Assembly: GCA_017556505.1 (NCBI GenBank)
Contig: JAFYNS010000164.1
Span: forward strand, 1-34,425
Direction of reading: 5' to 3'
Origin: Bacillota bacterium
Lineage (GTDB): Bacteria; Bacillota; Clostridia; Peptostreptococcales; Anaerovoracaceae
DNA length: 34,425 nt
Shown here: piece after piece, positions 17,585 to 34,042 of the stretch
Layout: the number at the start of each line of letters is the position of its first letter
Position numbering within the stretch: the first letter of the stretch is position 1
The notes under the pieces: generated by a model
Database searches by the model: none
What the model saw: only the letters and a program-made list of their open reading frames with translations
Told to the model about the DNA's origin: nothing
Program-made: the position numbers and the translations under genes

Positions 17585-17822
17585 TTTTTCCTCCATAAAA
17601 TTTTTTGTACTGTTTTCGCTATGCTTGTACAAGGGGTTCTTCTGCTTGGAATTTCAACGTGTACAGTGGAATTGCTTGCTTCGTACACGCTCTCGTGCGT
17701 TTCCATTTTATCTTACACAAGAAAAAACCAGGCGAATCCCTTCGCCCTCATCATGTGAGGACTTGCTCCGCGGAAATTCTCCTTTAGCACGGTAACTTCC
17801 CGCTTCTTCGCCTTTAACAAGC
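17585..17822 (-). promoter_or_regulatory. Leader region of the S10 operon
   Basis: This is the untranslated region of about 240 nt between the predicted transcription start and rpsJ. In transcript order it holds a GGCGAAG copy (17812-17806), AAAGGAG (about 17783), a CCTCA/TGAGG hairpin, a candidate attenuator hairpin, an ACGTGTAC-type stem (GCGTGTAC pairing GTACACGT) and a CTTGTACAAG palindrome, then GGAGG before rpsJ. A 13-codon ORF (17754-17713) spans the attenuator. No sequence match to a named leader family is recognised. Confidence 0.55.
17722..17746 (-). terminator. Candidate attenuator in the S10 leader
   Basis: On the minus strand GGCGAA-GGGA-TTCGCC forms a 6-bp GC-rich stem followed by TGG and six T. 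It sits about 75 nt into the leader and about 140 nt before rpsJ. A second GGCGAAG copy, 60 bases upstream, could pair with TTCGCC instead and disrupt the hairpin. The stem is short, so full termination is doubtful. Confidence 0.45.
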
Positions 17823-29285: not shown

Positions 29286-29939
29286 TTATTTCGTTATTTT
29301 TACATAGTTGATGTTTTTGCCGGCAGCACTGAACTTGTCTTCGTATTCCGTAGTTACCAGGCGGCTTTCGTAGCTGCAGTCCTCACCGTGGAGATCACGG
29401 GTCATCTCAGCCATTTTCAGGCCTTTCTCCTCCAGCAGTGCGATTTCCTCCAGGGTAAACTCAAAGAGTCCTTCATTATCGGTTTTAAACTCCACGAAGC
29501 CCGCTTCGTCCATAACCTGGAAATAGTTTTCCAGACGCTTATGGTATGTCAGTCTGCGCTTGTCGTGGCGTGCCTTGGGCCACGGATCGCTGAAATTCAG
29601 GTACACACCGGCCAGTTCGCCTTTTTCAAAGTAATCATTCAGGTCATTGACAAAATCGTTAAAAAGACGCAGATTGGCAAGTCCTGCCGCTTCCGCCTTT
29701 TCCATGGCCCGGAGAATAACGTTTTCCTGGCCTTCTACCGCGATATAGTTGGCGTCCGGATTGCGCTGCGCTCTGGTCAGGATGAACTTGCCCTTTCCGC
29801 AGCCGATTTCCAGATACACCGGATTGGTATTTCCAAAAATTTCAGCCCAGTGTCCCTTCGCTTCTCTCGGGTCTTTTATCAGAAAGCTGGAGTTGTTTGC
29901 CATCTTTTCTTCCAGATTTTTTACTGTTCTCTGTCTCAT
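29286..29939 (-). CDS. trmB: tRNA (guanine-N7-)-methyltransferase
   Basis: TrmB methylates N7 of G46 in the variable loop of many tRNAs (217 residues). EIGCGKG (44-50) is the SAM-binding motif and SDPWPKARHDKRR (117-129) the family's catalytic and substrate motif. The ending KINYVKI-like NINYVKITK is also typical. It follows ecfT by 28 bases with AGGAGGAAATAA before the ATG, so it is likely the last gene of the ECF operon. No functional link to transport is obvious. Confidence 0.96.
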   Translation of the reverse strand: MRQRTVKNLEEKMANNSSFLIKDPREAKGHWAEIFGNTNPVYLEIGCGKGKFILTRAQRNPDANYIAVEGQENVILRAMEKAEAAGLANLRLFNDFVNDLNDYFEKGELAGVYLNFSDPWPKARHDKRRLTYHKRLENYFQVMDEAGFVEFKTDNEGLFEFTLEEIALLEEKGLKMAEMTRDLHGEDCSYESRLVTTEYEDKFSAAGKNINYVKITK

Positions 29940-29967: not shown

Positions 29968-30768
29968 TTACAGCAGAATGGACTCAGCAATAATCAGGGC
30001 CAGGAATCCTGCCAGAAGCAGAATGGCCGCAAAATCTCTCTTTTTCAGCTTCAGTTCATGAAGACGGGTACGATGATCACCGCCCCGATAACATCTTGCT
30101 TCCATGGCCATGGCTAAATCCTGCGCGATACGGAAGGCGCTGACAAACAGCGGCACCAGAATCGGCACCAGACTCTTTGCTCTCTGAATCAGGTTTCCGG
30201 ATTCAAAGTCAGCCCCTCTGGCCTGCTGGGCCTTCATGATTTTGTCGGTTTCCTCCAGCAGAGTCGGGATGAAACGCAGCGCAATGGTCATCATCATGGC
30301 GATTTCATGAGCAGGAACACCGATTTTCTTCATCGGCGCCAGCAGACGTTCGATACCATCGGTCAGGCTCAGCGGCTGTGTGCACAGCGTCAGCATGGAA
30401 GATCCCAGGAGCAGCAGAATCAGGCGCACAGCCATGAAAACAGCCATGCGGAGGCCTTCCTTCGTAATCTTCAGGAATCCCAGGCGAACCAGCACGGTAC
30501 CGTCAATCATGAACATGTTCAGCGCAAAGGTGAAACACAGAATCAGGATAATGGGCTTCAGCCCCCGCACAATGTAGGAAAACGGTACCTTTGACAGGAG
30601 AATCACCGAACCCAGGGCACCTGCAGCCAGAACGAATCCTATAAAATTGTCTACAATAAACAGTTCCACGATGAACAGCAGGGTCGCGATGATTTTAACC
30701 CTGGCATCCAGACGGTGAATCACAGATTCACCGGGATAGAACTGTCCAAGTGTGATATCTCTAATCAT
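29968..30768 (-). CDS. ecfT: ECF transporter transmembrane subunit EcfT
   Basis: EcfT is the scaffold of energy-coupling-factor vitamin and metal transporters (266 residues, about five transmembrane helices). The two coupling-helix motifs that contact the ATPases are AQQARGAD and AMEARCYRGG. It starts MIRDITLGQFYPGESVIHRL, with the conserved DARVKII after it. It overlaps ecfA2 by 8 bases. No substrate-binding S component lies in the window, so this is a group II shared module. Confidence 0.95.
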   Translation of the reverse strand: MIRDITLGQFYPGESVIHRLDARVKIIATLLFIVELFIVDNFIGFVLAAGALGSVILLSKVPFSYIVRGLKPIILILCFTFALNMFMIDGTVLVRLGFLKITKEGLRMAVFMAVRLILLLLGSSMLTLCTQPLSLTDGIERLLAPMKKIGVPAHEIAMMMTIALRFIPTLLEETDKIMKAQQARGADFESGNLIQRAKSLVPILVPLFVSAFRIAQDLAMAMEARCYRGGDHRTRLHELKLKKRDFAAILLLAGFLALIIAESILL

Positions 30769-31627
30769 TTTCAGATGTTCCCTTCAGATATTGGAATATT
30801 TCTTCAGCTGCCTGCTCCGCAGACAGAATGGTTTCAGACAGGCTGAAACCGCGGTCACGCAGGGTTTCCGTAAACTGTGTTACCGGCGGAAGGGCCAGTC
30901 CCACTTCTTCCAGGCGCTGTCTCTGGCCAAAAACTTCCTTCGGAGTACCCACCGTTACCAGGCGTCCGCTGTCTATCACGATAATTTTATCGGACAGGCG
31001 CGCGATATCCGCCATATTATGTGATACCAGAATGGTGATGTTTCCGGTTCTGCGGTGGACTTCCTCCACCATGGCCAGCACGTCCTTGTGCGCTTTCGGA
31101 TCAAGGCCTGCAGTCGGCTCGTCCAGAATCAGAACTTCCGGACGCATGGCAATTACGCCTGCGATTGCCACACGGCGCTTCTGACCGCCTGACAGCTCAA
31201 ACGGAGACCGTTCTGCAATGGTCTCGTAATCAAGACCAACCAGCTCCAGGGATTCTTTCACCCGCTCCTCGATTTCCGCCTCAGACAGTCCCAGATTCTT
31301 CGGGCCGAAGGCTACGTCCTTTGCCACGGTTTCTTCAAACAGCTGGTACTCCGGATACTGGAAAACCAGTCCGATACGGCGCCGGATTTCCACCATGGAC
31401 ACGCCCGGTGCAGTGATATCCTTTCCACCCACCACAATCTGGCCTGAAGTCGGCTTCAGAAGACCGTTCAGGTGCTGCAGCAAAGTGGATTTGCCGGAGC
31501 CGGTGTGACCAATCACGCCCACCAGTTCCCCATCATTTATTTCAAAAGACACATCTTCCAGGGCCACTGATTCAGTAGGCATACCCGGTTCATAAATATG
31601 TGTCAGATTTCTTACCTGTATTGACAT
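30761..31627 (-). CDS. ecfA2: ECF transporter ATPase EcfA2
   Basis: This is the second ATPase of the ECF module (288 residues). Walker A is GHTGSGKST, the Q-loop is FQYPEYQLFEETV, the signature LSGGQKRRVAIAG, Walker B LILDEPTAGLDP, and the switch histidine is in LVSHNM. The LFEETV sequence after the Q-loop is typical of EcfA2 (A') rather than EcfA1. It overlaps ecfA1 by 16 bases and ecfT by 8. Confidence 0.95.
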   Translation of the reverse strand: MSIQVRNLTHIYEPGMPTESVALEDVSFEINDGELVGVIGHTGSGKSTLLQHLNGLLKPTSGQIVVGGKDITAPGVSMVEIRRRIGLVFQYPEYQLFEETVAKDVAFGPKNLGLSEAEIEERVKESLELVGLDYETIAERSPFELSGGQKRRVAIAGVIAMRPEVLILDEPTAGLDPKAHKDVLAMVEEVHRRTGNITILVSHNMADIARLSDKIIVIDSGRLVTVGTPKEVFGQRQRLEEVGLALPPVTQFTETLRDRGFSLSETILSAEQAAEEIFQYLKGTSEND

Positions 31628-32457
31628 AAGAATTCAACCATCTCTTCCGTACTGATTATGTTTTTCGGCACATCGATGCCTTTTTCCCGCAGATGCGCTG
31701 CCAGCTCTACTGCCAGCGGAATGTCCAGGTTTACAGACTGTATCAGTTCACGCTGGGAGAAGACTTCTGCAGGGGTTCCGTCCAGGAGAACCTTTCCTTC
31801 ATGCATGACTACCACACGCTCCGCTTCCGCAGCTTCTTCCATGAAGTGAGTTATCAGAAGGATGGTAATACCTTCTTCATGCAGCTCACGGATGATTTCC
31901 ATGATTTCCTGACGGCCTTTCGGATCCAGCATGGCTGTAGGCTCGTCAAAAATAATGCATTTCGGCTTCATTGCCACCACACCTGCAATGGCAATGCGCT
32001 GCTTCTGTCCGCCTGACAGCAGGTGAGGCGGTTTTTTGCGGAATTTCCCCATGTTTACCGCTTCCAGTGACTTGTCTACCCGGCGGCGGATTTCATCAGG
32101 GTCAATTCCCAGATTTTCCGGTCCAAAAGCCACGTCATCCTCTACGATGGCAGACACCAGCTGGTTATCCGGATTCTGAAATACCATTCCTGCAGTCTGG
32201 CGCACATCCCACACATGCTCTTCAGAGCGTGTGTCGTAACCTGCCACATAAACAGCTCCTTCCGTAGGAAGGAGCAGGCCATTCAGGTTTTTAGCCAGAG
32301 TGGACTTACCGGAGCCATTCTTTCCGAGAATGGCGGTGAAGCTGCCCTCCTCAATCTGCAGGCTTACGCCATCTACCGCATTGACCGGTTCCCTGTCTTC
32401 TTCTCTGACATAGCTGAAAATTAAATTATCTATGGTTATAATCGGTTCTTTTTCCAT
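31612..32457 (-). CDS. ecfA1: ECF transporter ATPase EcfA1
   Basis: This is the first ATPase of the ECF module (281 residues). Walker A is GKNGSGKST, the Q-loop FQNPDNQLVSAIVEDDVAFG is diagnostic for EcfA1, the signature is LSGGQKQRIAIAG, Walker B IIFDEPTAMLDP, and the switch histidine is in LITHFMEEA. It starts 15 bases after the AroD-like gene with a weak AGAGAAG ribosome binding site. It is therefore probably cotranscribed with that gene. Confidence 0.95.
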   Translation of the reverse strand: MEKEPIITIDNLIFSYVREEDREPVNAVDGVSLQIEEGSFTAILGKNGSGKSTLAKNLNGLLLPTEGAVYVAGYDTRSEEHVWDVRQTAGMVFQNPDNQLVSAIVEDDVAFGPENLGIDPDEIRRRVDKSLEAVNMGKFRKKPPHLLSGGQKQRIAIAGVVAMKPKCIIFDEPTAMLDPKGRQEIMEIIRELHEEGITILLITHFMEEAAEAERVVVMHEGKVLLDGTPAEVFSQRELIQSVNLDIPLAVELAAHLREKGIDVPKNIISTEEMVEFLCQYR

Positions 32458-32472
32458 TCTATCGACTTCTCT

Positions 32473-33168
32473 TTATCTATAGTATTTATCCATATATCTC
32501 TTCAAATCATGGGCGTTAAACTGGCCCGGCGCAGTCGCCTTACTGCCGCAGGCATAGGTCATCACAGAGCCGAAATCGCCTCCGCAGATTCTGCTGGCCT
32601 GACCTTCGTCCCCCATGGCAATAGCCAGGAACGGGGTATGTCCCTTCAGCTGGTTATAGGCGAAGGATCCCTCCAGAATCGCATAAGCATCCGCTTCCGT
32701 ATTTGCAAAGGAAATAATCGCCAGCATATCCGCACGGCAGCCCTCCATCTTTACAAACTCCATGGAGATTTCATCCTTTGTCATAATCCGCTCCAGTTCA
32801 TGATATGTCAGCAGAACTTTGGTACGGCGGCGGTGAGCTTCCTTAATAAGCTGTTTCGCCTGGCTGTTTTTCCAGTCGATAACCAGATAATCCGCAACAC
32901 CCATGGCAAGACGCAGATAACGGTTGGTTTCTTCCTCATCACCCTGAAAACCAAAGAAAAAGGTCTTATTGCGGCACATGATCTTCACCAGCTTCAGCAG
33001 CTGGATAAACTCATCTTTGCTGTACTGTTCCAGGCCGGCACCTGTTTCCGGATACCATTCCACAGCCTGACAAGCATCTCCGTACTGATCGATTTCTGCC
33101 TTAATTTCTTCCGGCGTTCTGCAGTTCAGAGTCAGACAAATCTGCGGTCTTTTTTTCACTTCTTTCAT
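32473..33168 (-). CDS. Type I 3-dehydroquinate dehydratase-like protein lacking the catalytic lysine
   Basis: This encodes 231 residues, slightly shorter than AroD, and aligns with it throughout. Glu37 (EWY), Glu79, His123 (TYHEL), Arg193 (ASRICGGDFGS) and Gln216 (TAPGQ) match E. coli Glu46, Glu86, His143, Arg213 and Gln236. Three key residues differ: the Schiff-base Lys170 position is Ala150 (ADMLAIISF), Arg82 is Gln75 (FGFQG), and Arg48 is Tyr39. Dehydration of dehydroquinate by the type I mechanism is therefore not expected. It may bind a shikimate-like ligand or do different chemistry. It lies between a TMEM164-like gene (37-base gap) and ecfA1 (15-base gap), on the same strand. I leave the gene symbol blank because activity is doubtful. 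Confidence 0.8.
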   Translation of the reverse strand: MKEVKKRPQICLTLNCRTPEEIKAEIDQYGDACQAVEWYPETGAGLEQYSKDEFIQLLKLVKIMCRNKTFFFGFQGDEEETNRYLRLAMGVADYLVIDWKNSQAKQLIKEAHRRRTKVLLTYHELERIMTKDEISMEFVKMEGCRADMLAIISFANTEADAYAILEGSFAYNQLKGHTPFLAIAMGDEGQASRICGGDFGSVMTYACGSKATAPGQFNAHDLKRYMDKYYR

Positions 33169-33205: not shown

Positions 33206-34042
33206 TTACTGTCTCGCACTGCGCCGTCCCAGAAAGCGGTACAGCAGGTACAGACAGTGAAATACCACAACAACCAGTGCCACACAGCCTGCCAGATATC
33301 CCGGATAGCCGAATCTGGTGCCCAGCAGGTTCCAGATTGGAACCAGAGGAGAACCCTCTGAAGCCTCATTGAGGAACAGGAAGTTGGTGCCGTTATTCAG
33401 GTTGAACCAGAACAGACCGGGTACAAACAGCAGAACAATTCCCACCGTCATCCACAGACCTCTGTAAGTCGGACGGTATTCTCCATTCCGATAACACATC
33501 ACCATGTAAAATACAATCCATGCGTGGAACACGAAGCTGTGAATGTTCATAAAGTTCAGGAACGGATACTCCGTCCAGTTGCAGAACAGAAGTGCAGATG
33601 CAGCCCCCGGCATGAACGCATAAGGAATCATCTGTCCCGTAATCTTCTGATTCTCCAGGAACGCATCTGCCAGCAAAGCAAAAATCGCCAGCCCGCACAG
33701 GTGGAACGGAAGATACTCAGCTGCCCAGAATCCGGTAAAATACAAAATCAGGTCTTTTACAATTTCAGATACGGCCAGTGCCACTGCAAAAAAACGGCGC
33801 ATATTCCGCTGCCTCTGCTGCCCGATTCCCCGGTTGCCAGGTGACGTTACCGCATTAGAGCGGATGTATATGCTTCCATGGCCATCCAGACCTTTATAGT
33901 ATGTACTGATCAGCGCTGCTGCTGCAATGATGACAGCCAGCCAGATCAGATGTCCTGCAGAATACAGGCCGAACCCGATATCCAGGTTCTGTTCCTGAAT
34001 TTCAATTTTATTTGTCCAAAAATATTCAAATGACATATCCAT
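33206..34042 (-). CDS. TMEM164/YwaF family integral membrane protein
   Basis: This encodes about 278 residues with roughly six to seven transmembrane helices. YLPFHLCGLAIF and FMNIHSFVFHAWIVFYM are the conserved family segments (TIGR02206/YwaF; TMEM164 in animals). Human TMEM164 is reported to be a cysteine-dependent acyltransferase; the Cys in PFHLC could be the matching residue, which is inference. A frame open from a GTG at 34159 exists, but that codon lies inside the promoter, so I place the start at the ATG at 34042; the ATG at 34036 is an alternative. Both have weak ribosome binding sites. It is the first gene of the operon that runs through the ECF module to trmB. Confidence 0.75.
   Translation of the reverse strand: MDMSFEYFWTNKIEIQEQNLDIGFGLYSAGHLIWLAVIIAAAALISTYYKGLDGHGSIYIRSNAVTSPGNRGIGQQRQRNMRRFFAVALAVSEIVKDLILYFTGFWAAEYLPFHLCGLAIFALLADAFLENQKITGQMIPYAFMPGAASALLFCNWTEYPFLNFMNIHSFVFHAWIVFYMVMCYRNGEYRPTYRGLWMTVGIVLLFVPGLFWFNLNNGTNFLFLNEASEGSPLVPIWNLLGTRFGYPGYLAGCVALVVVVFHCLYLLYRFLGRRSARQ

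Follow-up and report, generated by a model that had tools for sequence, protein, structure and literature searches.

In type I dehydroquinase, an imine is formed by a lysine with the assistance of His143, the substrate carboxylate is bound by Arg213 and Gln236, and the C4 and C5 hydroxyls are held by Glu46, Arg48, Arg82, and Asp114 (PMC9902378). Substitutions in the active site have inactivated the type I domain of Candida albicans Aro1, where the step is performed by the type II enzyme Dqd1; across Candida species, loss of the type I enzyme goes with the presence of a type II enzyme (PMC9074039). The bacterial protein described herein resembles this Aro1 domain in that the type I fold is kept, the catalytic dyad is broken, and the loss is correlated with a type II enzyme. 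However, the fungal domain is part of a five-domain enzyme and carries a His to Gln change, whereas the bacterial protein stands alone, carries a Lys to Ala change, and is encoded in an ECF-trmB cluster. The present case thus follows the logic of Aro1 and Dqd1, but in a bacterium, where the gene stands alone and the lysine itself is lost. Our literature search found nothing relevant on a bacterial pseudo-dehydroquinase or on a dehydroquinase associated with ECF transporters.

The fungal quinate repressors (QutR of Aspergillus nidulans, Qa-1S of Neurospora crassa, and QutX of Aspergillus niger) are homologous to the C-terminal domains of AROM, including its DHQase-like domain. It has been proposed that they respond to pathway intermediates (PMC12610400). 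They offer a second precedent, in this case for a sensing role in a DHQase-related protein. Unlike the stand-alone bacterial protein, these eukaryotic regulators have several domains and bind an activator protein.

The gene of interest lies at 32473..33168 on the minus strand of a 34,425-nucleotide stretch of DNA (the window; contig JAFYNS010000164.1) from a member of the Anaerovoracaceae. It begins with an ATG at 33168, has a GAGGG ribosome-binding site and an intact frame whose stop ends at 32473, and encodes a protein of 231 amino acids; the open reading frame on the plus strand of the same interval is spurious. The protein scores 110.7 bits on Pfam DHquinase_I (PF01487; cut-off 22.2), in a match that spans residues 11 to 224 and nearly the full model. 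It is thus a member of this homologous family, with a profile match across the entire barrel, and its closest solved relatives are the AroD enzymes of Clostridioides difficile (3js3) and Salmonella enterica (3m7w), to which it is homologous over its whole length. It differs from these enzymes in scoring 93.1 bits against the NCBIfam aroD equivalog TIGR01093, which is below the curated cut-off of 139.3, and in being encoded outside an aro operon. AlphaFold models of the protein, built from input alignments with no more than two and three sequences, are poor (pLDDT 60 and 55).

The preliminary description of this gene had placed the Schiff-base lysine at Ala150 and two substrate-binding arginines at Gln75 and Tyr39, and these assignments hold. 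In alignments with solved AroD structures, codon 150 (GCG, 32719..32721; this and all following codons are on the minus strand) falls on the catalytic lysine, which is Lys170 in S. enterica numbering. Orthologues that bear the lysine align without gaps through these positions (ADMLAI versus GDILKI), so the assignment does not depend on a distant alignment. Likewise, by the PDB and clade alignments, Tyr39 (TAT, 33052..33054) occupies the site of Arg48 and Gln75 (CAG, 32944..32946) that of Arg82, both hydroxyl-side substrate contacts (PMC9902378). The earlier list of losses was incomplete, as it missed Val96 (32881..32883), which the clade alignment places at the site of Asp114, a further hydroxyl-side contact (PMC9902378) that is kept as Asp in 14 of the 16 clade members. 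Only Glu46 (Glu37) therefore persists on this side among the four contacts.

The fold and four of the five residues said to be retained are indeed present. In addition to Glu37, these are His123 (32800..32802, catalytic His143 by the PDB and clade alignments), Arg193 (32590..32592, carboxylate-binding Arg213, invariant in all 16 clade members), and Gln216 (Gln236). Gln216 ends the TAPGQ loop at codons 212 to 216 (32521..32535), which covers the substrate (roles from PMC9902378; loop and Arg193 placed by the clade alignment). The fifth, Glu79 as the counterpart of Glu86, is unreliable because it falls in a shortened loop where the alignment to PDB structures has a gap, and because the site varies across the clade (E, K, V, N, D, or I). 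Hence the earlier suggestion of a retained ligand pocket survives for the carboxylate side but not for the hydroxyl side. The former carboxylate site is lined by Arg193, Met185, Gly189, Gln190, and the TAPGQ loop, which show little or no variation, and residues 37, 39, 73, 75, 79, and 152 near the pocket vary among the four proteins that carry Ala150. As read from these residues, the pattern points either to a ligand that has a carboxylate but differs at its far side or to the absence of any ligand. Compared with the enzyme AroD, the window protein has the catalytic histidine and both carboxylate contacts but lacks the Schiff-base lysine and three of the four hydroxyl-side contacts.

Orthologues were sought in 351 genomes of the family. 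Sixteen proteins were set apart at 337 to 450 bits, and all other dehydroquinases scored 135 or less. A sample of 395 genomes spread evenly across the order yielded no further clade member outside the family, the viral contigs searched held no relative, and a search of genome contigs returned one orthologue that was not new. The 16 proteins form one clade (support 100/100) on a long stem branch and come from four genera, with the Ala-bearing members as a subclade of four from the genus of the window (support 100/98). All four are draft assemblies; a fifth genome of the genus (G002) ends inside ecfA1 and is excluded from the count because its copy is unreadable. The other 12 clade members, all from other genera, keep Lys170.

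Orthologues that keep the lysine might have signaled a local sequencing error at codon 150. This explanation is rejected, as is chance: all four readable members of the genus have Ala, encoded by three synonymous codons (GCG, GCC, GCT, and GCT), and the lysine and the residues equivalent to Arg48, Arg82, His143, Arg213, and Gln236 are invariant in all 31 ordinary type I enzymes of relatives. Conservation among orthologues does not extend to the other two substitutions: Tyr39 is found only in the window protein, and position 75 varies among the Ala-bearing members. Arg48 itself is absent throughout the clade, with Cys in 14 members, Lys in one, and Tyr in the window protein. Because Arg48 is gone in all 16 members and the lysine in one genus only, the tree places the change on the arginine side first and the loss of the lysine later, once.

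The lysine-bearing sisters (genera g40, g69, and g86) share 42-54% identity with the window protein, the same place before ecfA1, and the loss of Arg48; in contrast, they keep the lysine and mostly have Cys at the Arg48 site and Lys at the Arg82 site. Two of them have no catalytic histidine, with Tyr in L049 (G283:C6:26465-27157) and Glu in L046 (G398:C19:1060-1749), and in the G283 protein the TAPGQ lid loop is also replaced by GEAGE. From these changes, loss of catalysis may have occurred repeatedly within the clade.

The preliminary description also argued for selective loss rather than decay, and measures of constraint bear this out. Between the two closest Ala-bearing species, dN for the gene is 0.026-0.028 and dS is at least 1.77 (Nei-Gojobori and YN00; dS is saturated for most pairs). 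The distance of the AroD-like protein relative to EcfA1, EcfA2, and EcfT is 1.46 in the Ala genus versus 2.1 and 2.8 in two Lys genera, a comparison that involves few independent pairs and whose direction is opposite to that of decay. All 16 frames are intact. The protein has therefore stayed under constraint after the loss of its lysine and is not decaying. Measured against the ECF proteins, this constraint is stronger than that in the lysine-bearing genera. Loss of an essential residue across the orthologues of a genus and purifying selection, which together mark a pseudoenzyme, are both found here.

A search for a second dehydroquinase, which had been recommended as a check, revealed that the window genome carries a type II aroQ as part of an aroA-aroC-aroQ operon. 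Another enzyme, unrelated to the type I family, is thus at hand to supply the original reaction. The aroQ gene is present in 15 of the 16 clade genomes, including three congeners of the window genome, and in none of 13 sampled genomes with an ordinary type I enzyme. The clade genome in which aroQ was not found, G043 (L008/L039, G043:C17; L072, L095), has aroB, aroA, an aroC that carries a chorismate-mutase-like tail as a fusion, and an aroE-aroK fusion, and its assembly could simply miss aroQ. Its sole dehydroquinase candidate is a lysine-bearing clade member without Arg48. Lysine-bearing members of the clade may thus have retained activity, and the lysine-less genus is the most likely place for its loss. 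In another genome, a second chorismate synthase match (G072:C2:3832-5157) and a shikimate dehydrogenase match lie together in a single open frame of 812 codons, and an ordinary aroC is also present.

Immediately downstream of the AroD-like gene, after a spacing of 15 nt, is ecfA1 (31612..32457), followed by ecfA2 (30761..31627), which like ecfA1 encodes an ECF transporter ATPase, ecfT (29968..30768), for a transmembrane coupling protein of the CbiQ family, and a trmB-like tRNA methyltransferase gene (29286..29939) that ends the conserved cluster. Upstream is a gene for a TMEM164/TIGR02206-like membrane protein (33206..34042; PF14808, 128 bits). All are on the minus strand and were identified from open reading frames and domain matches, with conserved contexts for the two immediate neighbors. 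EcfA1A2T is the general energizing module of ECF transporters, and no substrate-specific S component is encoded in the operon. The AroD-like gene directly precedes ecfA1-ecfA2-ecfT-trmB in 16 of 16 clade genomes, and the TMEM164-like gene lies upstream of it in 13 of the 14 that are readable there. The position is conserved, but the suggestion that it connects the protein to a small molecule taken up or sensed is weak in view of the missing S component and of at least five relatives that have ecfA1A2T, mostly with trmB, preceded by other genes and without the AroD-like gene. For this last reason, we reject the protein as a required ECF component and do not use an ECF partnership as the main argument for function. 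A link to transport is possible on positional grounds.

We propose that the AroD-like protein is a pseudo-dehydroquinase, a type I paralogue that would no longer dehydrate 3-dehydroquinate and that has been kept for a non-catalytic role, possibly including ligand binding. That a pseudo-dehydroquinase has been maintained under selection is well supported; the full proposal, as judged from the residues and their history, is moderately probable. In this scenario, a type I aroD in the ancestor of four related genera would have come to stand upstream of an existing ecfA1A2T-trmB operon. With the type II AroQ covering the pathway step, the hydroxyl-side clamp would have changed first on the long stem branch, with Arg48 becoming Cys and Arg82 becoming Lys. 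The Schiff-base lysine would then have become Ala in the genus of the window, and the protein would have settled under strong constraint. Without a nucleophile that could form the imine, the window protein presumably has no dehydratase activity. Perhaps the carboxylate clamp that remains (Arg193, Gln216, the TAPGQ lid loop, and His123) binds an acidic metabolite without turnover, so that the protein might act as a ligand-responsive binding protein or adaptor. This binding is a reasonable supposition from residue conservation and is less certain than the loss of activity, and the conserved C-terminal stretch could equally be structural or form a protein interface.

The most serious competitor is a barrel that is both non-catalytic and ligand-independent, serving purely as a protein-protein scaffold, for example one that associates with EcfA1/A2 or with the TMEM164-like membrane protein. 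The conserved adjacency of these genes and the variable hydroxyl half of the pocket within the Ala genus would fit this idea, as would the finding that the inactive DHQase domain mediates Aro1 dimerization in C. albicans (PMC9074039). We nevertheless regard it as unlikely, given that near-invariant residues at the old carboxylate site would be needless for a pure scaffold and that the ECF operon of relatives works without the gene. A new, lysine-independent enzyme, in which His123 would work with the carboxylate clamp on some other acidic substrate, is less likely still. His123 is kept in all four Ala-bearing members under strong constraint, and the hydroxyl side is already altered in the lysine-bearing sisters, so a change of substrate could have preceded loss of the lysine. 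However, no new catalytic residue is recognizable, and the differences among the Ala-bearing members at the six pocket positions are unlike those of an active site.

Two further readings carry far less weight. A decaying gene that survives for now might be suspected from the further losses in single members (the histidines of G398 and G283 and the lid loop of the latter), but the sixteen intact frames, the low dN relative to dS, and the tighter constraint in the Ala genus make this very improbable. That the protein is still a working dehydroquinate dehydratase by some unusual route, with the type II enzyme redundant, is hardly credible. The G043 case does indicate that the clade as such might not be dead, yet that member keeps its lysine; the window protein has lost the lysine along with Arg48, Arg82, and Asp114, and its genome has aroQ. 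Returning to the pseudo-dehydroquinase that we favor, one could speculate further that former dehydroquinases serve as ligand sensors that tie an acidic aromatic-pathway metabolite to vitamin uptake through the shared ECF energizing module, although we consider this extension improbable.

These genomes hold an evolutionary series within one bacterial family, from ordinary type I enzymes without a type II enzyme, through a relocated clade with an altered pocket and the lysine, to a lysine-less genus under tighter constraint. Such a series allows the loss of catalysis and the gain of a non-catalytic role to be tested one step at a time. It also urges caution with automatic 'AroD' annotation, by which genomes of this genus would be credited with a dehydroquinase that is probably unused.

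Two other features of the region were observed. In seven assemblies, the sequence breaks off no more than about 1.3 kb upstream of the AroD-like gene (at the start of contigs L035-L040 and at the end of the window, 34425). These shared breaks suggest a repeat or an rRNA operon at this place, although the available pieces show neither rRNA nor tRNA. Finally, an S10-Clostridia ribosomal protein leader (Rfam RF03136, 36.1 bits) at 17742-17816 on the minus strand heads a ribosomal protein operon.
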